Origin: Rhodothermus marinus
Lineage (GTDB): Bacteria; Bacteroidota; Rhodothermia; Rhodothermales; Rhodothermaceae
NCBI RefSeq assembly: GCF_009936275.1
Contig: NZ_AP019797.1
Coordinates: forward strand, 1,843,890-1,907,889
Direction of reading: 5' to 3'
DNA length: 64,000 nucleotides
The notes under the pieces were generated by a model, which searched no databases, was not told where the DNA came from, and saw only the letters and a list, made by a program, of their open reading frames with translations. Below are positions 10,234 through 26,359 of the stretch, piece after piece; positions within the stretch are counted from its first letter, which is position 1, and every line of letters begins with the position of its first letter. The position numbers and the translations under genes are program-made.

Positions 10234-13200
10234 ATGCCACGCCCTGCCGTAACCGTTACGCTGTATATTTTGTTGATGCTGGGCGCGGCCGCCTGCCGCC
10301 GCGCTCCTTCGGTCCCGGAGCCCGGTACCGACGCCTACCAGGAGACCGTCACGGCTTTTTACACGGGACTGGCCGCCCTGCAGGCCGGTGAGGATCGGGG
10401 CGCCCGTACGCTGCTGGAGCGGGTGACCGAGCTGGCGCCCGGCGAACCGGCCGCCTGGGCCAACCTGGGCCTGCTCGCGCTGCGCCGCAACGACCTGGAG
10501 GCCGCCCACCGCTACCTGAACGAGGCCGCCCGCCTTGCGCCCGAAAGCGTCCGCATTCAGGTGCTGCTGGCCCGTCTGGCCCTGGCTGAAGAACAACCGG
10601 AGGCGGCCCGTCGTCACCTGCTGGCCGCTCTGCAGCACGATCCCGCCGACCTTGAAGCAGCCTACCTCCTCTTCCAGCTCCTTGAGACCCACCCGGCGCC
10701 TGGCGACACGCTGACAGCCGACACGGTGCTGGCCCGGATGTTACGCCACCGCCCCGACAACCAGGCGCTCTGGCTGGAGCGCCTGCGCCGGGCCGTCGCC
10801 ACCCAGGATGCCCGGACGCTTCAGGAGACGATCGCCCATCTCCAGACGCTCATCGATACCTGGCCCGACGAGGCGCGGACGGTCTGGCAGGAGCTGCTCG
10901 CACTGGCCCGCGAGGCCAACTGGACGGCGCTACGTACGCAGGTCGCCTTCCTGCGCAACACGTTGCTCCAGCATCCGGCCTTTCGGGCCGATCTGGCCGA
11001 ACTGCAACCCCCGCCGGAAGTGCTGAGCCCCCCGCTTACCGAGCCGCTGCGTCTGGAGCCTCCCCGGGCCACCTTCGCCCTGCCCGACACGCTGATGACG
11101 TTCCAGTCCGAGCCGCTGCCAGGCGGTCCGGCACCGGCCTCGCGCGTGATCTGGAAGACCGCCGACGCCGACCCGTCGGTACTGCTGGTGCGCACGCGCG
11201 ACGTCATGTTCGACGACGGCACCGTGCTGCGGCGTCCGGGTCCGTTACCACCAACGGCCACGCCCGCCCACAGCGTCGCCCTGGTCGACTTCGACAACGA
11301 CTTTCGTATGGATGTGGCACTGGTGGGCAGCGAAGGCGTCCGGCTCTACCACCAGGAAGCCAATGGCACCTTCACCGAAGTCGCCCTGCCCGCACCTCCG
11401 GCCGACGGGATCACCGGCCTCTGGGTGGCCGATTTCGACCTGGAAGGCGACCTCGACCTGCTCCTTGGCACCGCATCCGTTTTTTTGATTAGCAATAACG
11501 GAGACCAGACCTTCCAGATCCGACGTGTCTTCGACATCGCCCCCCGCCAGCTTGCCTGGAGCGATCTCGACGGCGACGGCGATCCCGACCTGGCCGCGCT
11601 GGACCTCAACGGCGCGCTCCACCTCTGGCGCAACGAACGCCAGGGCCTTTTCCTGAAAGACGCGACCATGCCCGCCGGCTCCGGCTGCACGCTCACCTCC
11701 GCCGACCTCGACCACGACGGCCTGCTCGGACTGACGCTGTGGCGCCCGGACGGCTCGCTCCACCGACTCGCCTACACGCCACGCACCCGCTCCTGGGAAA
11801 CCCGTCCGCTGCCCGTCCGAACCCCCGCACTCGACGAAACCGCCTGCCGCCTGGCCCATCTCTTCACCGCCGACCTCGACAACAACGGCGCCCAGGACCT
11901 GATCGCCTCAATCCCCGGCCAGACCTGGATCTGGCTCGTTGACGCCCGCGGCCGCCTGCGCCCCGAACCGCTCACGCTCGAAGTGCAGGCCTTCGACGCC
12001 GCCGACCTCGACGGCGACGGCCGCCTGGACCTCACCGCCGCGCAACCCGACGGGACACCCGTCCGCCTCCGCAATCAGAGCGACGCGCCGTACGCCTGGA
12101 CGCTGCTCCATCCCCAGGCCGTCGTCGTGGGCGACCAGCGCGTCAACAGCTTCGGCATCGGCGGCGTCGTCGAGATCCGCGCCGGCACGATCTATCAGAA
12201 GCAGGTCATTCAGGCGCCCGTGGTGCATTTCGGGCTCGGACTGGAATCGCGCGTGCCACTGGCCCGCATCGTCTGGCCCAACGGCAACGTGCAGGCCGAA
12301 TTCAATCTGGCCGCCAACGAAACCGTCCAGGCCACACAACGCCTGAAGGGCTCCTGTCCCTGGGTCTTCACGTTCGACGGCGAACGCATGGTCTTCGTGA
12401 CCGACTTCATCTGGGGTTCGCCGCTGGGCCTGCGCATCAACGCCCAGGAGACCGGCGACATCGCCCAGACCGAGGACTGGATCAAGATCCGCGGCGACCA
12501 GCTCCGCCCACGCGACGGCATCTACGACGTGCGCATCACGGCCGAGCTGTGGGAGACGCACTTCTTCGACCACGTGGCTCTCATGGTGGTCGATCATCCG
12601 GAAGGAACCGAGGTCTGGGTGGACGAACGCTTCGCGTTTCCGCCGCGTCAGCTTCGACTCTACCCCACGGGTCCGGTGCAGCCCATTGCCCGCGCCCGCG
12701 ATCACCGGAATCGGGACGTGACGGATAAAGTTCGGCGTCGCGACGGCCGCTATTTCGACACGTTCGCCCCCGGTGCGTACCAGGGCATCGCCGAACCCCA
12801 CTTCATCGAGCTGGATCTGGGCAAAAGCGTACCGGCCGACCGACCGCTCTACCTGATCGCCTACGGCTGGTTGCGTCCGACCGACAGCTCGATCAACGTG
12901 GCGATCAGTCAGGGTCGCCATCCCCGGCCGCGGGGTCTGCGCGTCGAAGTGCCCGACGGCCAGGGCGGCTGGCGCGTGGCCTACCCGGACCTGGGCTTTC
13001 CGGCCGGCCGGTTGAAGACGATCGTGATCGACCTGACCGGCCAGCTCCCGGAGGGTGGTCCGTATCGCGTGCGGCTGCACACGAACCTGGAGATCTACTG
13101 GGACTGGATCGGCTGGGCCGAAGCGCGTCCGGACGCTCCGCTTCGCACCACGCGCCTGGCGCCCGAGCTGGCGCTGCTACGTTACCGGGGCTACTCGGCC

Positions 13201-13653
13201 ACCGTGCAACCCGAACGCTCCGCGCCGGAAGTCCCGATCTACGATTCGCTGGCCGGCACGGCCCAGCGCTGGCGCGATCTGGAAGGCTACTACACCCGTT
13301 TCGGCGACGTGCGCGAGCTGCTGGCTGAGATCGACGACCGCTACGTGATCATGAATGCCGGGGACGAACTCGTCTTCCACTTCCCCGCCCTGCCCGATCC
13401 GCCTGAAGGCTGGACGCGCGACTTCGTGCTCATCGGCGACGGCTGGGTCAAGGACGGCGACTACAACACGACGTTCTCCCGCACCGTGCGGCCCCTGCCC
13501 TATCACGACATGCCCGGCTATGACACACCGCCCGGTCGCCTGTGGGACGACCCGGTCTACCGCCGTTTTCCCGAAGACTGGCTGCGCTTCCACACGCGCT
13601 ACGTGGCACCGGACCGCTTCGACCGGAAGCTGGCGCTGACATCGCCCGATTAA
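10234..13653 (+). CDS. TPR + FG-GAP/VCBS + ASPIC/UnbV fusion lipoprotein
   Basis: A 1139-residue protein starting with a lipoprotein signal (LYILLMLGAAAC). Residues about 35-250 are TPR-like helical repeats (NLGLLALRRNDLEAAHRYL is typical). Residues about 345-640 hold FG-GAP/VCBS-like repeats with Asp-rich loops such as DFDLEGDLDLL, DLDGDGDPDL and DLDGDGRLDL that would bind calcium. An ASPIC/UnbV-like segment (VVHFGLGLESRVPLARIVWP) follows near 665-700. A C-terminal region of about 430 residues is unassigned. It is probably displayed on the cell envelope. The same TPR and FG-GAP/UnbV parts occur as separate genes at 21682-24323. Its last four bases overlap the PIN fragment. Confidence 0.85.
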   Translation: MPRPAVTVTLYILLMLGAAACRRAPSVPEPGTDAYQETVTAFYTGLAALQAGEDRGARTLLERVTELAPGEPAAWANLGLLALRRNDLEAAHRYLNEAARLAPESVRIQVLLARLALAEEQPEAARRHLLAALQHDPADLEAAYLLFQLLETHPAPGDTLTADTVLARMLRHRPDNQALWLERLRRAVATQDARTLQETIAHLQTLIDTWPDEARTVWQELLALAREANWTALRTQVAFLRNTLLQHPAFRADLAELQPPPEVLSPPLTEPLRLEPPRATFALPDTLMTFQSEPLPGGPAPASRVIWKTADADPSVLLVRTRDVMFDDGTVLRRPGPLPPTATPAHSVALVDFDNDFRMDVALVGSEGVRLYHQEANGTFTEVALPAPPADGITGLWVADFDLEGDLDLLLGTASVFLISNNGDQTFQIRRVFDIAPRQLAWSDLDGDGDPDLAALDLNGALHLWRNERQGLFLKDATMPAGSGCTLTSADLDHDGLLGLTLWRPDGSLHRLAYTPRTRSWETRPLPVRTPALDETACRLAHLFTADLDNNGAQDLIASIPGQTWIWLVDARGRLRPEPLTLEVQAFDAADLDGDGRLDLTAAQPDGTPVRLRNQSDAPYAWTLLHPQAVVVGDQRVNSFGIGGVVEIRAGTIYQKQVIQAPVVHFGLGLESRVPLARIVWPNGNVQAEFNLAANETVQATQRLKGSCPWVFTFDGERMVFVTDFIWGSPLGLRINAQETGDIAQTEDWIKIRGDQLRPRDGIYDVRITAELWETHFFDHVALMVVDHPEGTEVWVDERFAFPPRQLRLYPTGPVQPIARARDHRNRDVTDKVRRRDGRYFDTFAPGAYQGIAEPHFIELDLGKSVPADRPLYLIAYGWLRPTDSSINVAISQGRHPRPRGLRVEVPDGQGGWRVAYPDLGFPAGRLKTIVIDLTGQLPEGGPYRVRLHTNLEIYWDWIGWAEARPDAPLRTTRLAPELALLRYRGYSATVQPERSAPEVPIYDSLAGTAQRWRDLEGYYTRFGDVRELLAEIDDRYVIMNAGDELVFHFPALPDPPEGWTRDFVLIGDGWVKDGDYNTTFSRTVRPLPYHDMPGYDTPPGRLWDDPVYRRFPEDWLRFHTRYVAPDRFDRKLALTSPD

Positions 13654-15715: not shown

Positions 15716-15868
15716 TCACGACTGCAGCAGGTCAACAGGTAAAAAGTCGGCCGGATCGCTTATTTTGACAGCGTGAACGTCAACTTCTGCAGAGAATCCA
15801 AAAAGCGCTTCCGCTTTGAAGCTCAAAATTTCGTAAACTGAAGCCAGGTTGTATCCTTCTCGAAGGAC
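15716..15868 (-). pseudogene. Possible remnant of a small gene, maybe a nucleotidyltransferase-type protein
   Basis: The minus-strand frame reads LREGYNLASVYEILSFKAEA and continues FGFSAEVDVHAVKISDPADF to a stop at 15716. The composition is protein-like and the DNA is AT-richer than the flanks. The phrase resembles the C-terminal half of small MNT-type proteins, but there is no GSRARG motif and no plausible start, since the upstream part is antisense to etfB. It could also be chance. No other gene is seen in 15603-15869, which must also hold the promoter of the etf operon. Confidence 0.25.
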
Positions 15869-15869
15869 T

Positions 15870-16637
15870 ATGAACATCTGCGTCTGCATCAAACAGGTAC
15901 CGGACATTCAGGCGCCCTTTCGGATCGTGGACGGGCGCCTGCAATTTGACGTCGAGCGCTATGTCCTGAACGCCTACGATGCCTCGGCCGTCGAAGGGGC
16001 GCTGCAGCTCGTCGAGCAGCACGGCGGTACGGTCGAGGTCGTCGCCATCGGACCGGCCTCGGTCTCGGAATCGATCCGCAAGGCGCTGGCCATGGGCGCC
16101 GAGCGCGCCTATCACATCGAAGCGGATCCGTCCGACTGGGACTCGGCCACCGTGGCGACGGTCCTGGCCGCCTTTTTCCGGGACCGGAGCTACGATGCCA
16201 TCTTCACCGGCAAACAGGCCCAGGACACCGACGCGGGCCTGACCGGCACCATGCTGGCCGAGCTGCTGGGGCTCCCCTACGTGAGCAACGCGGTGGGGCT
16301 GGCCTACGAAAACGGACGCCTGATCGTCACGCGCCAGGGCGACGCCGGCCGGGAAATCATCGAACTGGCGCTGCCGGGTCTGGTGACGATCTCCAACGAC
16401 ATGAACGACCCGCGCATTCCATCGATTCGGGGCATCATGCAGGCCCGCCGAAAGCCCATCGAGGCGCTCACGCTGTCGGACCTGGGGCTGTCGCCCGAGC
16501 AGCTCCGGCCCCGCACGCGCGTGACCGGCTACCGACCGATTCCGCCCCGTGCGTCCGGCCGCAAGCTCGAAGGCGAACCGGCCGAGGTGGTTCGTGAACT
16601 CGTTCGTCTGCTCCGCGAAGAAGCCCGCGTGTTGTAA
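15870..16637 (+). CDS. etfB: Electron transfer flavoprotein beta subunit (FixA-like)
   Basis: ATG 15870 lies behind an AAGG ribosome site. The 255-residue protein begins MNICVCIKQVPD and has the conserved segments FTGKQAQDTDAGLTG and DMNDPRIPSIRGIMQA-RRKPIE of EtfB/FixA. It would form the heterodimer with EtfA that takes electrons from acyl-CoA dehydrogenases. It is first of five genes in the order fixA-fixB-fixC-fixX-acyl-CoA dehydrogenase. I cannot tell from motifs alone whether it binds AMP (canonical) or a second FAD (bifurcating). Confidence 0.92.
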   Translation: MNICVCIKQVPDIQAPFRIVDGRLQFDVERYVLNAYDASAVEGALQLVEQHGGTVEVVAIGPASVSESIRKALAMGAERAYHIEADPSDWDSATVATVLAAFFRDRSYDAIFTGKQAQDTDAGLTGTMLAELLGLPYVSNAVGLAYENGRLIVTRQGDAGREIIELALPGLVTISNDMNDPRIPSIRGIMQARRKPIEALTLSDLGLSPEQLRPRTRVTGYRPIPPRASGRKLEGEPAEVVRELVRLLREEARVL

Positions 16638-16639
16638 CC

Positions 16640-17623
16640 ATGAGCACCTACCTCTGCCATATTCCCACGCAACAGGAGCGCCCCACCCGTGCGGCGCTGG
16701 AAGTGCTGACGCACGTGCGCACGCTGGCCCGCCGTGATGGGGCCCGACTGGCCGCCTGTGTGCTGCACCCCGAGGCGGATCGCTTCGTCGAAGCGCTGAA
16801 GCTCTACGGGGTGGATCAGGTCTATCTGGTGAAACACCCCGCACTGGACCGGCACCTGAACGCGCCGGTGCTGACTGCGCTGGCGGCCGTCTTTCGCGCG
16901 GCACAACCGACGCTGATGGCGCTGCCGTCCACCGAGTCCGTCAAGGACGTGCTGGGGGCGCTGGCCGCCCGCGTCGGAGCCGCCGCCCTGCCCGACGTGT
17001 CGGCGTTCGACATCGGCGCGTCCGTGACGGCCACGCGTCCGGTCATGGCCGCCCGTGTGCTGGCCGACACCGAAGCCACCACACAACCCGTGCTTGTCTC
17101 GGTGCGGGCCGGCACCTATACCGCACAACCGGCCGAAAGCCCCACCGAGCCCGAAGTCGTGGAGGTACCGCTCGACTTCGACACGGCCACGCTGCGGGCC
17201 ACGCTCCGCGAGGTGATCACCGGCACGACCGGTCAGGTGGACCTTTCGGAGGCCGACATCATCGTGGCGGCCGGACGCGGCGTGCGCGACGAAGCCGGCA
17301 AACAGCTCGTCGAAGAACTGGCCCGCGAGCTGGGCGCCGCCATCGGGGCCTCGCGTGCCGCCATCGAGGCCGGTCTCTTTCCGGCTTCGCTCCAGATCGG
17401 CCAGACCGGCAAGGTGGTTTCGCCCACGCTCTACATCGCCGTCGGCATCTCCGGGGCCATCCAGCACGTGGCCGGCATGGCCGGAAGCAAGGTGATCGTG
17501 GCGATCAACAAAGACCCGGACGCCCCGATCTTCAACATCGCCACCTACGGCATCGTGGGCGACCTGTACCAGATCCTGCCCCTGCTCCTCGAAGAAATCC
17601 GCCGGATCAAGGCCGAAAGCTGA
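16640..17623 (+). CDS. etfA: Electron transfer flavoprotein alpha subunit (FixB-like)
   Basis: This 327-residue protein carries the FAD-binding C-terminal domain signature [20 protein letters not shown] followed by IQHVAGM and [10 protein letters not shown]. The N-terminal part is the usual divergent alpha/beta domain. It begins two bases after etfB ends and its TGA overlaps the ATG of the FixC-like gene, so the subunits are translated as a unit. Confidence 0.94.
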
Positions 17624-18951
17624 TGGAAGCCGAACGCTTCGGGTGCATCATCGTCGGCGGTGGTATCGCCGGACTGAGCGCGGCCATGGTGCTGGCCCGC
17701 CACGAGGTGCCCTTTCTGCTCATCGAGCGCGGCGCCTACAGCGGCGCCAAGAACGTCTCGGGCGGCGTGCTCTGGGGCACCGACCTGGCCCGCCTCGTGC
17801 CCGAGTACTGGAACGATCCGAACGCCGGCTTCGAGCGCTTCATCAACCACCGGCGGCTGACCTTCCTCGACGAGCAGTCGGCCTTCTCGATCGACTTCAA
17901 ATCGTCCCACTACGACACGCCGCCCTACATGGGCGTGACCGTGCTGCGGGCCATTTTTGACCGCTGGCTGGCCGACAAAGTGCAGGAAGCCATCGATCGG
18001 AGCGCCTGTGCCGACGCGTCCTTTCTGGCCTTCGACGTGCTCGTCGAACGCCTGCTCGTCGAAGACGGCCGCGTCGTGGGCGTCGAGGCCGGCGGTGAGC
18101 GTTTCTATGCCGACTGCGTGATCCTGGCCGAAGGCGTCTACAACCTGCTCACGCGCCAGATCGGCCTGCAGGCCGAGTACGTGCCCGCCGACCACATGGC
18201 CGTCGGCGTCAAAGAAGTGCTCCGCTTCGACCGTCGGGTGCTCGAAGACCGCTTCCAGCTCTCCGAGCGCAGCGGCTTGGCCAACGAGTTCATCGGCGCC
18301 ATCACCGACGGCGTCGAAGGCGGCGGCTTCCTCTACACGAACCGCACCACCGTGTCGATCGGGCTGGTGCTCGGCATGGCCGACCTGCGCCGCAAGCGCA
18401 AAAAGCCCTACGAACTGCTGGACCGCTTCAAGGCGCATCCCGTGGTGGCCGACATGATCCGGGGGGGCGAGGTCGTCGAGTACTCGGCGCACGTGGTCTC
18501 GACGGGCGACATGCGGGCCATGCCGCGCGAACTCTACGCCGACGGCGTGCTCGTGGCCGGCGAGGCGGCCAACCTGCTGCTGAATGCGGGCAAGGCGATT
18601 CAGGGCATGGACTTCGCCATGCATTCGGGCATCCTGGCCGCCGAAACCGTGCTCGAAGCCCGACGCGTCGGCGACTTCTCGGCCGCCACGCTCCGCCGCT
18701 ACCGCGAGCGCCTGGAGCAGAGCTACGTGCTCCAGAACATGCGGAACTTCCAGGCGGCCGTTCGTTTGCTCCACGAACCGGTGATGTACGAACGCATGCC
18801 GCGCCTGGCGTGCGACCTGGGCCGTGAGTTCTTCCGCGTGGAAAACCGTCCGGCCCCGAAACTGCGCCAGATTCTACGCGAGGTGGTGCGCCGCCACAGC
18901 TCGCCGCTGGAACTGCTCAAACTCACCTACCGGGCCTGGAAAGCCCTCTGA
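17623..18951 (+). CDS. fixC: FixC-like ETF:quinone oxidoreductase flavoprotein
   Basis: A 442-residue flavoprotein with an N-terminal dinucleotide-binding motif (CIIVGGGIAGLSAAMVLAR) and the downstream segments GVLWGTDLARL and AGEAANLLLNAGKAIQGMDF typical of FixC/ETF-QO. The length matches FixC (about 430) rather than full ETF-QO (about 550), because the ferredoxin domain is the separate next gene. It would pass electrons from EtfAB to the quinone pool at the membrane. It overlaps etfA by one base. Confidence 0.92.
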   Translation: MEAERFGCIIVGGGIAGLSAAMVLARHEVPFLLIERGAYSGAKNVSGGVLWGTDLARLVPEYWNDPNAGFERFINHRRLTFLDEQSAFSIDFKSSHYDTPPYMGVTVLRAIFDRWLADKVQEAIDRSACADASFLAFDVLVERLLVEDGRVVGVEAGGERFYADCVILAEGVYNLLTRQIGLQAEYVPADHMAVGVKEVLRFDRRVLEDRFQLSERSGLANEFIGAITDGVEGGGFLYTNRTTVSIGLVLGMADLRRKRKKPYELLDRFKAHPVVADMIRGGEVVEYSAHVVSTGDMRAMPRELYADGVLVAGEAANLLLNAGKAIQGMDFAMHSGILAAETVLEARRVGDFSAATLRRYRERLEQSYVLQNMRNFQAAVRLLHEPVMYERMPRLACDLGREFFRVENRPAPKLRQILREVVRRHSSPLELLKLTYRAWKAL

Positions 18952-18954
18952 GCC

Positions 18955-19248
18955 ATGACGATCGCCGAACGCCTCGGAACCGTCAACTACCGCAACCAGG
19001 AGCGCCGGGACGCCCGGCCGCATATTCTGGTCGACACGAACATCTGCAATACGCGTTGCCCGCACAAGGCCACCACCTACGTGTGTCCGGCCAACTGCTA
19101 CACGCTCGACGAGCAGGGCCACGTGCACTTTCAGTTCGAAGACTGCATCGAGTGCGGCACCTGCATGTACGCCTGCGATCAGGGGGCCGTCAGCTGGCAC
19201 TACCCGGATCCCGAGCAGGGCCGCGGCGTGAACTGGAATTACGGATAA
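18955..19248 (+). CDS. fixX: FixX-like ferredoxin
   Basis: A 97-residue iron-sulfur protein with CIECGTCMYAC near the C-terminus and further cysteines in CNTRCPHK and CPANC, as in FixX. It corresponds to the C-terminal 4Fe-4S domain of ETF-quinone oxidoreductase and would pair with FixC. The start ATG is three bases after the fixC stop. Confidence 0.93.
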   Translation: MTIAERLGTVNYRNQERRDARPHILVDTNICNTRCPHKATTYVCPANCYTLDEQGHVHFQFEDCIECGTCMYACDQGAVSWHYPDPEQGRGVNWNYG

Positions 19249-19278
19249 GTGCTGCGATCACAAAAAATTGGATAGACC

Positions 19279-20526
19279 ATGGGCTCGTTTCCCTTCAACC
19301 CGGACGATGCGTTCCTCTTCGAATCGATGCTGAAGGAGGAGGATCGCCTGATCATGGAGACGGCGCGCGAGTACGCCCAGAGCTGCCTGGAACCCCGCGC
19401 GCTCGAAGGCAACCAGCAGGGCATCTTTCACATGGAGATTCCCCGCGAGATGGGCGAGCTGGGCCTGCTGGGCGTGACGATCGACCCGAAGTACGGCGGC
19501 GGAGGCGCCAGTTACACGGCCTACGGACTGATCGCCCGTGAGCTGGAGCGCGTCGACTCGGCCTACCGCTCGTTCATGTCGGTGCAGTCGTCGCTGGTGA
19601 TGTTCCCCATCGAGAAGTACGGTACCGAGGAGCAAAAGCGCAAATACCTGCCGAAGCTGGCCACCGGCGAGCTGATCGGCTGCTTTGGCCTGACCGAGCC
19701 CGACCACGGCTCCGATCCCGGCTCGATGGAGACGACGGCCCGGCGCGTCGACGGCGGCTGGATCCTCAACGGTACGAAAGCCTGGATCACGAACGCCCCC
19801 ATTGCCGACATTGCGGTGGTCTGGGCCCGCGCTAAAGAGCATCCGGACGACGAGGGCGAAATCATGGGCTTCATTCTGGAGCGCGACATGCCGGGCCTCT
19901 CGACGCCGGAGACCAAAAACAAGATGTCGCTGCGGGCCTCTTCGACCGGCGAGATCGTGATGGAAGATGTGTTCGTGCCCGATGCGAACGTATTGCCGGG
20001 CGTGCGCGGGCTACGAGGACCGTTCTCGTGCCTGAGCAACGCCCGCTACGGGATCGCCTGGGGCACGGTGGGTGCGGCCGAGGACTGCTACCAGCGCACG
20101 CGGCGTTACGTGATGGAGCGCACCCAGTTCGGCTACCCGCTGGCGGCCATGCAGCTCATCCAGACGAAGCTCGCCAACATGCTCACCGAGATCACCCAGA
20201 TGCAGTTGCTGGCCTTCCGGCTGGGGCAACTGGCCGACGAGGGCAGGGTGACGCCCGCCCAGATCTCGCTGGCCAAGCGTAACAACGCCGGCAAGGCGCT
20301 GGAGATTGCCCGCATGGCGCGCGACATGCACGGCGCCAATGGTATCGTAGGTGAGTATCGGGTCATCCATCACATGGTAAACCTCGAAAGCGTCAACACC
20401 TACGAGGGCACCTACGACATCCACGGCCTGATCCTCGGCCGCGAGATCACGGGCATCCAGGCCTTCGTGCCGCGCGGCAACGACCTGCCCCCGAAGAAAA
20501 AGCCCGCTCCGGCTACGGCTTCGTAA
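19279..20526 (+). CDS. Acyl-CoA dehydrogenase, glutaryl-CoA dehydrogenase type
   Basis: A 415-residue acyl-CoA dehydrogenase. [30 protein letters not shown] and the C-terminal catalytic glutamate in [16 protein letters not shown] are all characteristic of the glutaryl-CoA dehydrogenase group, which dehydrogenates and decarboxylates glutaryl-CoA to crotonyl-CoA. The Arg that binds the distal carboxylate cannot be assigned with certainty, so another acyl-CoA is possible. It is last in the ETF operon, so its electrons probably go directly to EtfAB and FixCX. The short Lys/Pro/Ala tail is unremarkable. Confidence 0.9.
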
Positions 20527-20975: not shown

Positions 20976-21566
20976 TTATCGAAACAGGGCAAACAGCGCC
21001 ACAATCACTCCGATCTGCCCTGCCCAGAAAATGAACATCCAGCGCACCAAGCTCGCATACCGCTCGCTGAGCGCTACCTTCACCTCTGCAATGCGGTTGT
21101 CCAGTTTCGACTCTACCTCCGTGAAGCGCTGCTCCAGACGGGCCACTTCCTCGGTAATCCGCTTGTCCAGTTTTGCGGTCTCCTCTGTAATCCGATGGTC
21201 CAGCCGCTTTTCCACCTCGGCAATCTGCGCTTCCAGCCGCTTTTCCACCTCGGCAATCTTCACTTCCAGCCGCTTTTCCACCTCGGCAATCTTCACTTCC
21301 AGACGTTTTTCCGTCTCGGCAATCTGCGCTTCCAGCCGCTTTTCCACCTCGACAATCTTCACTTCCAGACGTTTTTCCGTCTCGGCAATCTGCACCTCCA
21401 GGCGTTTGCCTTCGTCGGTCACGCGTCGCTCAAAACGTTCTTCCAGAATACCCAGCAGATTATTGCGCTCATGATGGGCTGCTTCATTCAGAAGCGTGAT
21501 GAGCGCCTCGACGCCGTCGTCGCCGAGTTTCTCACGCAAAACCTTTGGGACGGTCAGAATCGCCAT
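20976..21566 (-). CDS. Tail-anchored coiled-coil protein with ten 11-residue repeats
   Basis: The 196-residue protein has a head (residues 1-53), then ten exact 11-residue units (54-163) built on KRLEVKIAEVE, and a C-terminal membrane segment (about 174-195, WMFIFWAGQIGVIVALFALF). Eleven-residue periodicity predicts a right-handed hendecad coiled coil rather than a heptad one. The head-stalk-anchor layout resembles the DUF1640/CCDC90-like family. It should be a trimeric or similar stalk held in the inner membrane. It lies downstream of the TPR gene on the same strand, 115 bp away. Function unknown. Confidence 0.85.
   Translation of the reverse strand: MAILTVPKVLREKLGDDGVEALITLLNEAAHHERNNLLGILEERFERRVTDEGKRLEVQIAETEKRLEVKIVEVEKRLEAQIAETEKRLEVKIAEVEKRLEVKIAEVEKRLEAQIAEVEKRLDHRITEETAKLDKRITEEVARLEQRFTEVESKLDNRIAEVKVALSERYASLVRWMFIFWAGQIGVIVALFALFR
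21078..21407 (-). repeat. 33-bp tandem repeats inside the coiled-coil gene
   Basis: The ten 11-residue units are encoded by 33-bp repeats. The first six (about 21210-21407) are nearly identical at DNA level, so they arose by recent duplication and the array could change length by recombination. This is coding repeat, not a CRISPR array: there are no unique spacers. Confidence 0.85.
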
Positions 21567-21681
21567 GAATCTGCAAATGCAGGTGCCTTTCAGCAGCAGA
21601 AAAATTTACAGATTTACAGGAAAGTTCCTCGGGCTTCTGAATTGTTCGTCGATCGTTGTGCCGTAGATGGTCCGGACAGGC

Positions 21682-22545
21682 TCAGCTCGACTTTCCGGGA
21701 AGCACTCGCTCCAGCCGATCGGCCAGCGGGCGAAGGAACTGGTCAGGGTCGAGTAGGTTGGTCGTGTCGGCCAGGGCGGTTTCGTTGAAGTCCAGCAGCG
21801 GGCACGTAGTGGCCTCTTCCGACACCAGCGCCCGCCCTGTGCGCGTGTTGCCTTCTTCGAGCTGGAGGCGCGCCGCGTCGGTTCGCGCCCGGGCATAAGG
21901 CCGGGCCTGTGCCAGCAACGCAGCGGCGGTCTTCCGATCGCCTGCCTGCCACGCCAGATAGGCCTTCAGCACATAGGCCGGCACGCTGCGGAAGTTCATC
22001 GCCAGCACCTTGTCGAAGAGCGCGGCGGCTTCCTCGAAACACCCCTCCAGCAGGGCCACTTCGCCGAGGTGCAGCACCGGGCCGCTGTCTTTGTTCAGCG
22101 CCAGCGCCCGCTCGAACGAAGCACGCGCGGCCTCCAGGTCGAACAGGGGGCTTTCGGGGTAGCACATCTGCAGGCGACCGAGCTGCATGAAGACCCGGTT
22201 GCTCCGGGGGTAGGCGGCGGCCAGCCGCTGCCAGACCCGGTAGGCGTCCTCCAGGCGTCCCAGCTCCAGATAGGTGTTGCCCAGGTAGTAGAGTGCGTTT
22301 TCGTGCAGACTGTCGAGCGCCAGCGCCTGTCGATACAGTTCGGCGGCGGCTTCCAGCTCGCCACTCAGGCGCCGCTGCGTGGCCTCGCGGTACAGCTTCC
22401 AGAACTGCACCACGCGGGCCCGTTCGGCCTCGGAGGCGTCGGTCGACTCCTGCGAGGCCGTGCGGGAGGCGCATCCGGCCAGCAGCAATAGCCCAAGCAG
22501 TCCGCCGACGAGCAGGTGTTTCGATATGAGTCCTGCGCGTTTCAT
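21682..22545 (-). CDS. TPR lipoprotein
   Basis: From ATG 22545 the 287-residue product has a lipoprotein signal (LVGGLLGLLLLAGC) and then TPR-like repeats, e.g. RLSGELEAAAELYRQALALD, NALYYLGNTYLELGRLEDAY and SFERALALNKDSGPVLHLGE. TPRs are protein-binding scaffolds, so it likely sits on the envelope as an adaptor. The start ATGA overlaps the stop of the CRTAC1-like gene, implying coupled translation. The equivalent TPR region is fused to FG-GAP/UnbV in the protein at 10234-13653. Confidence 0.85.
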   Translation of the reverse strand: MKRAGLISKHLLVGGLLGLLLLAGCASRTASQESTDASEAERARVVQFWKLYREATQRRLSGELEAAAELYRQALALDSLHENALYYLGNTYLELGRLEDAYRVWQRLAAAYPRSNRVFMQLGRLQMCYPESPLFDLEAARASFERALALNKDSGPVLHLGEVALLEGCFEEAAALFDKVLAMNFRSVPAYVLKAYLAWQAGDRKTAAALLAQARPYARARTDAARLQLEEGNTRTGRALVSEEATTCPLLDFNETALADTTNLLDPDQFLRPLADRLERVLPGKSS

Positions 22546-24323
22546 GTGCCCACGTCTTCGACGATACGTACGATCTGCCGGGCCGGTACGTCGGTAAGCA
22601 CCTGACGGCGGCCGTTGCACGGCCAGATAACCTCGACCGTATCGACGCGGGTGGCCTTCCCCAGTCCGAAGTGGGCCACGGGGCTGTTCTGCGACAGGTA
22701 GGAGCTCTGCGCACCGATCTGGCGAACCTGCACCTGTCCGCCCGCCACCACGCGCACCCGTGCCCCCAGTGCCATCCGGTTGCAGGAACGGCTTTCGAGC
22801 GCCACCTCCAGCCAGCTGTTCCGGCTGCCCCCTTCGTTGCGGAGCAACACGCCCCGGCCGCCGTGATTCACCACGAAAATGTCCACATCGCCGTCGTTGT
22901 CGTAGTCGCCAAAAGCCGCCCCGCGCCCCACATAGAGCGAATCGAAGAAGCTGCCGCTGACGGCCGACACGTCGTAGAACCCGTCGCTGCCACGATTCCA
23001 GAAAAGCAGGTCTTTCTGGGGTACGAGCAGGTGCGGGCGGTCGCGCTGCTGGAGCGTGCTGCCATTCGTCACAAACAGGTCAAGCCGCCCGTCGTTATCG
23101 TAGTCGAAAAACGAAGTCCCCCACCCCACGTAGTCAAGCGAAATCTGCCCGAGCCCGTACATGTCGGCCTCGTCACGAAACAGCAGCTTGCCCTGCTCCC
23201 GCAAGAGGTTCGTGTAAAGGGCGTTTTCCTGGGCCACCCAGTGCGTCAGGAACAGATCCAGGTCGGTGTCGCCGTCCCAGTCGCCCACGGCAATGCCCAT
23301 CGAACTCCGGTAATCGGCCACCAGCGCGGGATAGCTCAGGTCTTCGAAGGTGCCATCGCCCCGGTTGCGGAAGAAGGTGTTGTCCGAGACGTCGTTGGCC
23401 ACGTAGAGGTCGAGCCAGCCGTCCTCGTCCAGATCCGCCCAGGCCGCGCTGAGCCCTTTGCCTTCGGGGTCAGCCACGCCGGCCCGGACGGCGATTTCGG
23501 TGAAGGTGCCGTCGCCGTTGTTGCGATAGAACAGGTTGCGCTCGGGCTCGAAGGTCGAGGGATTGATGCCCGGCGGATTTTCGATGTCGAAGCCCAGCGC
23601 CGAGGGATCATTGCTGACGGGCACGTAGCGGACGTAGCCGGTGATGTAGAGGTCGAGGTCGCCGTCGTTGTCGTAGTCGCCCCAGGAGGCACCTGTCCAG
23701 AAGCCCTGCGGCCCGGCCAGTCCGGCCCTGCGGGTTACGTCGGTGAAGGTGCCGTCGCCGTTGTTGTGATAGAGCACGTTCTGTCCGAAGGCGGTCACCA
23801 CCAGGTCAGGCCAGCCGTCGTTGTCGTAGTCGCCCCAGGCCGCGCCCATACCCCATCCACAGAAGCCCACCCCGGCCGCCTCGGTCACATCGGTGAAGGT
23901 GCCGTCGCCGTTGTTATGGAACAGGCGGTTGCAGGTACCGGCCCGGCGCCCTTCTTCGGGCGTCATCGAAAGCGGGCCGATCGTACTGACCACGTAGAGG
24001 TCGAGCCAGCCATCCCGGTCGTAGTCGCCCCAGGCTGCCCCCGAGCCCATGTCTTCCGGGATCTGGCTTGTGCGCCGGCCTGCAAAGTGGCGAAAGCGAA
24101 TGCCGGCCGCCTCCGTCACATCCGCGAACGTCACGCGGGGATAGTCCGGCGGGAGCGTCCGCTCCAGGCGGGCCACCACCCCTTCGACCTGTTCGCCCGG
24201 GCGGTACGGCGCTTCGTCCGTGTCGGTCATGCTCCAGACCAGCACGCCGCCGCCCAGGCTACCGACCAGCGCCACTCCCAGCGCCCACAGCGCCTGGCGC
24301 TTTCTTCGCGAAAGTCGTCCCAT
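22542..24323 (-). CDS. CRTAC1-like FG-GAP/ASPIC-UnbV protein
   Basis: A 593-residue exported protein with an N-terminal membrane anchor or signal (LWALGVALVGSLGGGVLVW). Repeated FG-GAP/VCBS blades follow (GAAWGDYDRDGWLDLYVV, GAAWGDYDNDGWPDLVV, GASWGDYDNDGDLDLYI and others), each with Asp-rich calcium loops and the linker NNGDGTFTDVT. The C-terminus is an ASPIC/UnbV domain (GARVRVVAGG, VAHFGLGKATRVDTVEVIWP). These form a beta-propeller outside the cytoplasm, of unknown biochemical function. The gene starts five bases after the cytochrome gene stops and overlaps the TPR gene. Confidence 0.92.
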   Translation of the reverse strand: MGRLSRRKRQALWALGVALVGSLGGGVLVWSMTDTDEAPYRPGEQVEGVVARLERTLPPDYPRVTFADVTEAAGIRFRHFAGRRTSQIPEDMGSGAAWGDYDRDGWLDLYVVSTIGPLSMTPEEGRRAGTCNRLFHNNGDGTFTDVTEAAGVGFCGWGMGAAWGDYDNDGWPDLVVTAFGQNVLYHNNGDGTFTDVTRRAGLAGPQGFWTGASWGDYDNDGDLDLYITGYVRYVPVSNDPSALGFDIENPPGINPSTFEPERNLFYRNNGDGTFTEIAVRAGVADPEGKGLSAAWADLDEDGWLDLYVANDVSDNTFFRNRGDGTFEDLSYPALVADYRSSMGIAVGDWDGDTDLDLFLTHWVAQENALYTNLLREQGKLLFRDEADMYGLGQISLDYVGWGTSFFDYDNDGRLDLFVTNGSTLQQRDRPHLLVPQKDLLFWNRGSDGFYDVSAVSGSFFDSLYVGRGAAFGDYDNDGDVDIFVVNHGGRGVLLRNEGGSRNSWLEVALESRSCNRMALGARVRVVAGGQVQVRQIGAQSSYLSQNSPVAHFGLGKATRVDTVEVIWPCNGRRQVLTDVPARQIVRIVEDVGT

Positions 24324-24328
24324 CGTGC

Positions 24329-26359
24329 TTACATCACCTGAATCACCGTGGAATCGGCCGACAGCTCCGTCACCGGTGCGGTCAGCGTGGTGTCGGGGAA
24401 CAGGAAGTTGAGCAGGAACTGGTTCACCTTGCGGTAGCAGAGTCGGGCCTTCACGTGCAGGCGACGGGCGTCGCGCGGCACGGTGAACGTGTAGCGGGCC
24501 TGATCGGCATAGCCCGGAAACATGGCCCGCTTGTAGCGCACGCCCACCATCTCCCAGAGGTTGTGCCGGTCGATCAGGTTGCCGTAGCGGTCCACCGGCT
24601 CCGCCTTGAAGACGAAGGAGCCGGGCTCGATGAAGTAGCGGTCGTCGAGCCGTCCGCTGGCGAACACCTCCCGACCCTGCTCGTCGGTCACCACAAACTC
24701 GACCCAGGCCTGGATGATGTCCAGTGGCCCGGTGGGGAAGTCGTGCCCGGCCTTGTTGTTCAGCATGGCCACTTCGACGGTGACCGTTTCACCGGAACGG
24801 GCGCGTTCCGGGGCCAGCACCTGGATGGGAATGACCGGCCCGTTGCGCCACTTGTCGGCAATCTCCGGCACTTCGATCTCGCCGCGAAGCCACTTTTCGA
24901 CGAGCCGTGCATGTTCTTTGCCGCCCGGCAGCTCCAGGTGGGCCGGAATGAACTGATTGGCCCCAAGAAAACGGTGGCTGCGGTGCTTGCCGTCGTCGGG
25001 CGATCGGTTGTAGTCGAGCGCATCGCCACGGGCCGGATCGAACGAATCGACCAGCGGCATGTGGCACTCCCGGCATTCGATCGTCTTCGCGGGATCGCCC
25101 GGATGATTCCAGCGGCTCTTGCGCCAGTTGTCGTACTGGTTCTGGAGCTGCACCCAGCCCACGTTGTTGATCTCCTCATCCACGAACTGCTTGTGGCAGG
25201 CGCCACAGAACTCCGGGCTCTTGAACATGCGGCGGCTCAGGCTCGAAACGTGGTGCTTCGGATAGGAGCGAATCAGGAAGTTGCTGATCAGTACACCGAG
25301 ACCGCTCGTGTCGCGCTCGAACAGATAGGGCTCCGGCGCGTGGATCACGTAGTCCGCATTGCCCCGCACGTCCACTTCCTGGATCGCATGGCAGGTCACG
25401 CACGAGACGCCCTCATGCAGCCCCACAGGATTGGTCAGGTCGTCGCGAAACAGGTTCTTCGCAGCGCTGAAGAGCGAGATCGGGTCGTGGCAACCGCCAC
25501 AGTAGCGGGTCGATTCGGCCCCGTTCTGCGTGCCCATCACATGCTGCACCCGTCGAAACAGCGGGTCGGCCGCCGAATAGCGGTGCGCGCTGGGCAGCCA
25601 TTCTTCGTAGATCTGCTCGTGGCAGCCCGAGCGCCCGCACGAAGCCGACCCACCCAGCATCTCGGCCGGAATGGCCTTGTTGTTCTCGGTGCGGGCCAGA
25701 CTCGGCGCAAAGGGGCGATCGGGGCCGTAGAGGTAGCTGTAGTCCGGCGGAAAATCGACGTAGCGCGCCGGCGCCCGGTAGACATAGGCCAGCGCCACCA
25801 CCACGACGAAAAGTCCCAGCGTCAACGCCGTCACCGCCGCCGAAAAATGCCGTTGCGCCACCAGCACCGGCCGAATCGCCTCACGCTTGCGGGCGCGGTG
25901 GTCGCGCACCATGATCCAGACCACGTGCGGCACAACCGTGGCGATCAGCGCGAACGTGGACCAGAGGTGCACCCGGCTCCAGCCGTAGTGGATGCGCGTG
26001 TCCCAGAGCGCCTGCACCGTCAGCACCAGTCCCGACACAATCGCCACCAGCGTGGCGACCATCCCCACATAGCCGAGCACTACAATGTGATTCCACGGCA
26101 TGCGCCGGTAAATCCACCAGTGCCGCACCTGATACCACAGATAAGGGAGCAGAAATGCCAGCCCCCCGACGGTGTGGAGCAGCACGATGAACTGAGCGGG
26201 CACGCTGAACGGCAGCAGGTAAATACCCAGGCCACTCAGCGTTTCAAACAGCAGCAGACCGCCCACACACCACAGCAGGCGGTGCCGCCATTCACGGACA
26301 CGGGGATGATCGGGCTGCATGGCGCCGGGCCTTTTTTGGATTGAAGTACAAAAATGCAT
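24329..26359 (-). CDS. Membrane-anchored pentaheme cytochrome c
   Basis: Residues 28-195 form about five membrane helices with several histidines, resembling a cytochrome b-type or NapC-like anchor. The periplasmic part has five heme c sites: CGRSGCH (C241-H247, a CX4CH spacing), CGGCH (287-291), CVTCH (320-324), CGACH (385-389) and CRECH (429-433). A beta-rich C-terminal domain with AGHDFPTGPLD follows. Spacing resembles the cytochrome c-554 type. I keep ATG 26359 because AAGGA lies seven bases upstream; ATG 26320 is an alternative. It heads an operon with the CRTAC1-like and TPR genes and probably transfers electrons out of the quinone pool. Confidence 0.9.
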   Translation of the reverse strand: MHFCTSIQKRPGAMQPDHPRVREWRHRLLWCVGGLLLFETLSGLGIYLLPFSVPAQFIVLLHTVGGLAFLLPYLWYQVRHWWIYRRMPWNHIVVLGYVGMVATLVAIVSGLVLTVQALWDTRIHYGWSRVHLWSTFALIATVVPHVVWIMVRDHRARKREAIRPVLVAQRHFSAAVTALTLGLFVVVVALAYVYRAPARYVDFPPDYSYLYGPDRPFAPSLARTENNKAIPAEMLGGSASCGRSGCHEQIYEEWLPSAHRYSAADPLFRRVQHVMGTQNGAESTRYCGGCHDPISLFSAAKNLFRDDLTNPVGLHEGVSCVTCHAIQEVDVRGNADYVIHAPEPYLFERDTSGLGVLISNFLIRSYPKHHVSSLSRRMFKSPEFCGACHKQFVDEEINNVGWVQLQNQYDNWRKSRWNHPGDPAKTIECRECHMPLVDSFDPARGDALDYNRSPDDGKHRSHRFLGANQFIPAHLELPGGKEHARLVEKWLRGEIEVPEIADKWRNGPVIPIQVLAPERARSGETVTVEVAMLNNKAGHDFPTGPLDIIQAWVEFVVTDEQGREVFASGRLDDRYFIEPGSFVFKAEPVDRYGNLIDRHNLWEMVGVRYKRAMFPGYADQARYTFTVPRDARRLHVKARLCYRKVNQFLLNFLFPDTTLTAPVTELSADSTVIQVM

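Follow-up and report, generated by a model that had tools for sequence, protein, structure and literature searches.

What does a membrane-bound pentahaem cytochrome do directly in front of a CRTAC1-like propeller protein and a TPR lipoprotein? The question is raised by a stretch of 64,000 nucleotides from Rhodothermus marinus (contig NZ_AP019797.1, positions 1,843,890 to 1,907,889), which was analysed as a whole and is called the window hereafter, and in which three such genes follow one another on the minus strand. The cytochrome gene (24329-26359, 676 aa) encodes a DUF4405-like, putatively haem-b-binding membrane domain, a pentahaem c domain and an immunoglobulin-like (Ig-like) domain. The CRTAC1-like gene (22542-24323) encodes a propeller and a UnbV/ASPIC domain, with Pfam matches to FG-GAP_3 (1.5e-52) and UnbV_ASPIC (9e-23), behind an N-terminal membrane anchor without a lipobox, and the TPR lipoprotein (21682-22545, 287 aa; TPR_19, 4e-15) carries the lipobox LAGC. 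The close spacing described in an earlier note on this DNA proved exact, with five nucleotides between the cytochrome and CRTAC1 genes (24324-24328) and an ATGA overlap of the CRTAC1 stop with the TPR start (22542-22545). The likelier start of the cytochrome is the ATG at 26320 (residue 14), since the orthologues align only from residue ~13, and a promoter scan gave no signal above chance. We consider it rather probable that the three genes form one ancient functional unit, in which the cytochrome passes electrons through b- and c-haems toward the CRTAC1-TPR partner.

Gene order and co-inheritance of the three genes

A family-alignment scan with one genome per species recovered at least 582 relatives, and the 80 highest-scoring loci, mostly from metagenome-assembled genomes, were kept with their flanks. 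They span 13 named phyla, namely Acidobacteriota, Planctomycetota, Gemmatimonadota, Bacteroidota, Verrucomicrobiota, Rhodothermota, Fidelibacterota, Krumholzibacteriota, Chloroflexota, Latescibacterota, Poribacteria, Balneolota and Actinomycetota, the last with one metagenome-assembled genome. CRTAC1 lies directly downstream of the cytochrome on the same strand in 78 of these 80 best loci, and the contigs of the other two end within 160 nt; order and strand are kept in 78/78 informative loci from 12 named phyla. Exceptions that had first appeared among the open reading frames (e.g., L088, L094, L104, L113, L130 and L140) were found by tblastn to be gene-calling errors. Of the 78 loci, 26 have the TPR region as a gene of its own and 40 have it fused to the C-terminus of CRTAC1; it was undetected in 12, of which seven are contig ends, L139 is a fusion and L133 continues with a TPR-bearing protein. 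Among 60 relatives searched, the cytochrome is carried by eight genomes, seven of Rhodothermus and one of another family (G027, 66% identity). All eight hold cytochrome, CRTAC1 and TPR in that order on one strand, the lack of CRTAC1 in G027 being only apparent and caused by a wrong-strand open reading frame.

The earlier note had anticipated constant linkage in relatives, as against random order around CRTAC1 homologues or a CRTAC1-TPR pair devoid of its cytochrome, and constant linkage is what the eight relatives and the 78 informative loci display: the genes around the orthologous CRTAC1 are not arranged at random, and the CRTAC1-TPR pair is accompanied by the cytochrome. Because the order is kept in all informative loci across many phyla, the arrangement does not reflect chance. 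The explanation that the genes are chance neighbours without a functional link is refuted by this comparison, in which 78/78 loci over 12 phyla, the fusions and the congruent trees all stand against it, and its probability is practically nil.

The trees in question, which cover 69 cytochromes and the CRTAC1 protein paired with each, agree in 42 of 66 bipartitions. The pairwise distances of the two proteins correlate with r = 0.85 (best of 999 permutations, 0.13), a value to which shared vertical descent contributes, as it was tested without a species-tree background. Between the fused and the split state of the TPR, the cytochrome tree shows five changes and the CRTAC1 tree four. Together, tree agreement and state changes indicate that the trio evolves as a unit in which the TPR was repeatedly joined to, or parted from, CRTAC1, and the three genes were probably also transferred together from one lineage to another. 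The constant linkage and the domain fusions point to a physical interaction of the parts, as the earlier note had claimed. Overall, the same trio in the same order in a dozen phyla very probably represents one previously undescribed electron-transfer machine.

A second, paralogous unit was found in the window's own genome (L031; G000:C1:2228000-2246000), where TonB receptor genes, a secreted protein, a PorV-like barrel and a TPR gene are followed by a cytochrome with a C-terminal TPR fusion, then directly by a CRTAC1 lipoprotein, and then by TPR and TPR-CRTAC1 genes. Here the TPR is joined to the cytochrome instead and CRTAC1 stands next to it, which supports the reading of one functional unit. 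This cytochrome belongs to a more distant type, termed B-type, that also occurs in other Rhodothermales. At another locus (L039:3060-14721), CRTAC1 and TPR genes alternate around a cytochrome-TPR fusion.

Domains of the cytochrome

In the AlphaFold2 model of the cytochrome (mean pLDDT 87.8), five membrane helices precede the haem domain, and the C-terminal part forms an Ig-like domain rich in beta structure. According to the modelled helices, the membrane domain covers residues 27-193 (25781-26281, minus strand) and contains four histidines, H62 and H80 in helix 2 and H131 and H145 in helix 4, which are invariant in 51/51 trio-type cytochromes. Because the orientation of helix 2 is also that of helix 4, two haem-b sites are predicted, one at the pair H62/H131 and the other at H80/H145. 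Four conserved membrane histidines are also found in the DUF4405 haem-b cytochromes, one of which, with four histidines at its centre, has been shown to bind haem b in vitro (PMC11334425). Weak matches to DUF4405 were obtained for 27 of 59 homologues (E ≤ 0.5, best 4e-5), and weak matches to Ni_hydr_CYTB, the prokaryotic cytochrome b561 family, for 12 of them. The membrane part appears to be more than an anchor and resembles a haem-b domain, by analogy probably a quinol-oxidising one.

The pentahaem domain (residues 216-475; 24935-25714, minus strand) carries five c-haem sites, and the cytochrome also has a PF13435 match. Its one CX4CH motif, CGRSGCH (C241-H247; 25619-25639, minus strand), accompanies four CXXCH motifs in 51/51 trio-type homologues from many phyla. 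Sequence comparison marks the CX4CH as a real haem site: beside this conservation, a distant homologue (L040) has CXXCH in its place, and so does the solved c552 at the aligned position. The Ig-like domain (24332-24847, minus strand), whose strands span residues 512-675 in the model, gave a weak ExtKL C-terminal match and holds the motif GHDFPTG with the invariant H539, and HxxPTG is aligned in c552. Both the pentahaem and the Ig-like parts match the fold of T. tepidum c552 (5ze8; E 4e-11; template modelling (TM) score, target, 0.67). With five c-haem motifs, an Ig-like domain with a conserved histidine and this fold match, the cytochrome belongs to the c552/ExtKL pentahaem cytochrome family. 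Two other assignments were rejected: the ExtKL equivalog NF040886 scored 42.5 bits against a cut-off of 250, and alternative complex III gave no sequence match for any of its chains, the PDB search having matched only 5ze8.

Membership in this family raises the alternative that the unit feeds extracellular electron transfer, its pentahaem domain being related to nanowire-type cytochromes. A connection of the c552/ExtKL family with both extracellular electron transfer and the cytochrome nanowires of archaea has been reported (PMC11976967), and islands already known for extracellular cytochromes include propeller proteins (PMC8322314). The paralogous L031 locus of this genome lies among outer-membrane genes, while neither a porin-cytochrome conduit nor an outer-membrane cytochrome was found among the constant neighbours of the trio. 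Cultured holders such as Rhodothermus and Fodinibius are aerobic heterotrophs, which also speaks against an extracellular route, and this alternative strikes us as quite improbable.

The CRTAC1 and TPR proteins, their paralogues and the flanking genes

In the model of a fused orthologue (L110; mean pLDDT 85.6), the propeller and the UnbV domain are accompanied by a membrane helix and a TPR superhelix, and the best solved match is murine CRTAC1 (PDB 9etn, TM 0.73). With an FG-GAP propeller and a UnbV domain, the CRTAC1-like protein belongs to the CRTAC1/ASPIC-UnbV family. A membrane helix without a lipobox was observed in 60 of 69 trio-type CRTAC1 proteins, and most inspected paralogues look like lipoproteins. 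Within the trio clade, the residues R84, Y307, Y338, H361, W362 and W401 hardly vary; in six aligned paralogues all are changed, apart from H361, which is changed in five of the six. None of the 69 trio-type sequences contains a haem motif.

The CRTAC1 and TPR proteins might be assembly or stability factors for the cytochrome, acting in haem insertion, folding or placing in the envelope, and not electron partners. The maturation of c-type cytochromes commonly involves TPR domains and weak TPR_CcmH_CycH matches were obtained, but these score below the family cut-off and reflect general TPR similarity. The CRTAC1 protein has no cofactor motif, yet its strong constraint and its trio-specific aromatic residues suggest a permanent role. 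Likewise, the unusual CX4CH, universal in the trio-type group, might need special handling, although B-type cytochromes with the same motif often lack a neighbouring CRTAC1. On balance, an assembly function is rather unlikely.

The linkage was also examined in reverse, by seeking CRTAC1 homologues in 99 Acidobacteriota and 99 Planctomycetota genomes and inspecting the best loci. In these samples, homologues above ~400 tblastn bits have the cytochrome directly upstream in 8/8 cases, those of ~295-400 bits have it in some cases (L185-L190) and not in most, and none below ~295 bits was found with a full cytochrome. This pattern indicates that the linkage belongs to one CRTAC1 clade, and not to the superfamily with its many unlinked paralogues. 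Some paralogues stand directly beside cytochromes of the c554 type with seven to eight haems (L158:3100-4401, L170:2921-4396 and L177:2532-3998), which suggests a wider association of CRTAC1 with multihaem proteins.

Such neighbours bear on a further alternative, that of a reductase or oxidase acting in the periplasm, in which a pentahaem site with open coordination performs small-molecule chemistry while CRTAC1-TPR binds or channels the substrate. In its favour, an excerpt of PMC12758564 places CRTAC1 genes on the flanks of hydrazine-synthase-like multihaem genes, as the paralogues above stand beside seven- to eight-haem cytochromes, and the haem region, compared over both cytochrome types, has no more than four invariant histidines outside the motifs, for five haems. 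Within the trio-type group, however, H459, H599 and M275 are further invariant candidate ligands, so that all five haems could be six-coordinate, and no substrate-linked gene was found among the constant neighbours. We hold such a catalytic role to be clearly unlikely.

Neighbour clustering revealed no widely recurring neighbour of the trio besides one family, to which a lipoprotein of the window belongs (10234-13653, plus strand). As the earlier note had stated, this protein holds TPR (~45-190), FG-GAP (~350-610) and UnbV (660-698) domains in one chain; Pfam agrees, with a weak UnbV match (1.4e-6). Its C-terminal ~430 aa (residues 711-1139; window 12364-13650) gave no Pfam match at E ≤ 0.001 and are conserved in several phyla. 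The fusion family recurs in nine loci by clustering, and a direct search with the non-repeat C-terminal half found relatives within the ~10-kb flanks of 11 of the 80 trio loci; one more lies near a B-type cytochrome (L034). The assignment of this fusion to the same biology as the trio thus gains support.

The coiled-coil gene beyond the trio (20976-21566, minus strand; LA_3696 N-terminal domain) does follow on the same strand, 115 nt beyond the TPR gene, as the earlier note had it; its place as a member of the unit did not hold up, the gene belonging to a dispersed multicopy family. This family has 27 match segments in this genome, variable internal repeats and many copies per Rhodothermus genome, and of seven Rhodothermus genomes only two (G000 and G005) were found to have it at the locus, while in two of the other five (G003 and G006) too little of the contig remains beyond the TPR gene for it to be seen. 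Genes resembling those of electron-transfer flavoprotein, a FixC-like quinone reductase and an acyl-CoA dehydrogenase lie on the plus strand and point toward the trio in a convergent arrangement (15849-20526). Their products would feed electrons to quinone, but among the neighbour clusters that recur at trio loci elsewhere these genes were not recognised.

Proposed mechanism and relation to known systems

In the proposed mechanism, the cytochrome would sit in the inner membrane, where its membrane domain would probably oxidise menaquinol with two haem-b groups, at H62/H131 and H80/H145, and the five c-haems, facing the periplasm, would carry the electrons outwards. The CRTAC1 propeller, anchored in the membrane, would make up a stable partner together with the TPR domain, whether the two are fused or not, and this partner might dock on the pentahaem domain and hold or recruit an acceptor, or bridge the periplasm to it. 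Whether the unit is a phylum-crossing respiratory or electron-export complex, composed of a haem-b/pentahaem-c quinol dehydrogenase and an obligate CRTAC1-TPR module, we regard as an evenly balanced proposition.

Several observations weigh against this mechanism. Quinol oxidation is proposed by analogy, and the DUF4405 profile gave no match for the window cytochrome itself. Neither CRTAC1 nor TPR contains a redox cofactor motif, and they need not be electron carriers. The TPR was not found in L146, L148 and L149, and in other Rhodothermales CRTAC1 is directly downstream of the B-type cytochrome in only about half of the loci. In addition, the 80 loci are the best-scoring of at least 582, so the complete agreement describes the orthologous group and not the whole superfamily.

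Acidobacteriota, Planctomycetota and Rhodothermota are rich in bacterial CRTAC1/ASPIC-UnbV proteins, with dozens of paralogues in some genomes, and to our knowledge no function has been assigned to these proteins. The fixed three-gene unit provides one clade of them with a concrete, testable biochemical setting; if the reading is true, bacterial members of the family would, in part at least, be subunits of electron-transfer complexes, and a widespread, apparently undescribed membrane electron-transfer module would be added to phyla of poorly known respiration. The component domains and the pentahaem cytochrome family are already known, while a haem-b/pentahaem chain with a fixed CRTAC1-TPR partner is not described in the open-access literature searched, subscription papers lying outside the search.

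Compared with the DUF4405 and prokaryotic cytochrome b561-type proteins, the window cytochrome has a similar membrane core of several helices with four conserved histidines, and weak profile matches are obtained for many homologues; it differs in its five modelled helices, the fused five c-haems and the lack of a match of its own. Geobacter CbcL-type inner-membrane quinol dehydrogenases likewise combine a b-type membrane domain and a multihaem c domain in one chain, in the opposite domain order, with a longer haem chain in place of the pentahaem domain and without the CRTAC1-TPR partners. The other pentahaem cytochromes, namely c552 (5ze8), Geobacter ExtKL and the sPHC of cable bacteria, also carry an Ig-like domain with HxxPTG behind their five c-haems, whereas the trio cytochrome adds an N-terminal haem-b-like membrane domain, a CX4CH as the first site and a constant CRTAC1 partner. 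Alternative complex III of R. marinus, with the pentahaem ActA, is alike as a quinol-linked membrane pentahaem cytochrome in Rhodothermus and unlike in sequence, size and partners. The genes of PMC12758564 resemble the trio in that a CRTAC1-family gene adjoins multihaem cytochrome genes; the cytochromes are others, and the excerpt describes no TPR trio or haem-b domain. Finally, animal CRTAC1 (9etn), matched in sequence at E = 8e-23, shares the FG-GAP propeller and UnbV domain, to which the bacterial trio protein adds a membrane anchor, a TPR partner or fusion and an operon with a cytochrome.

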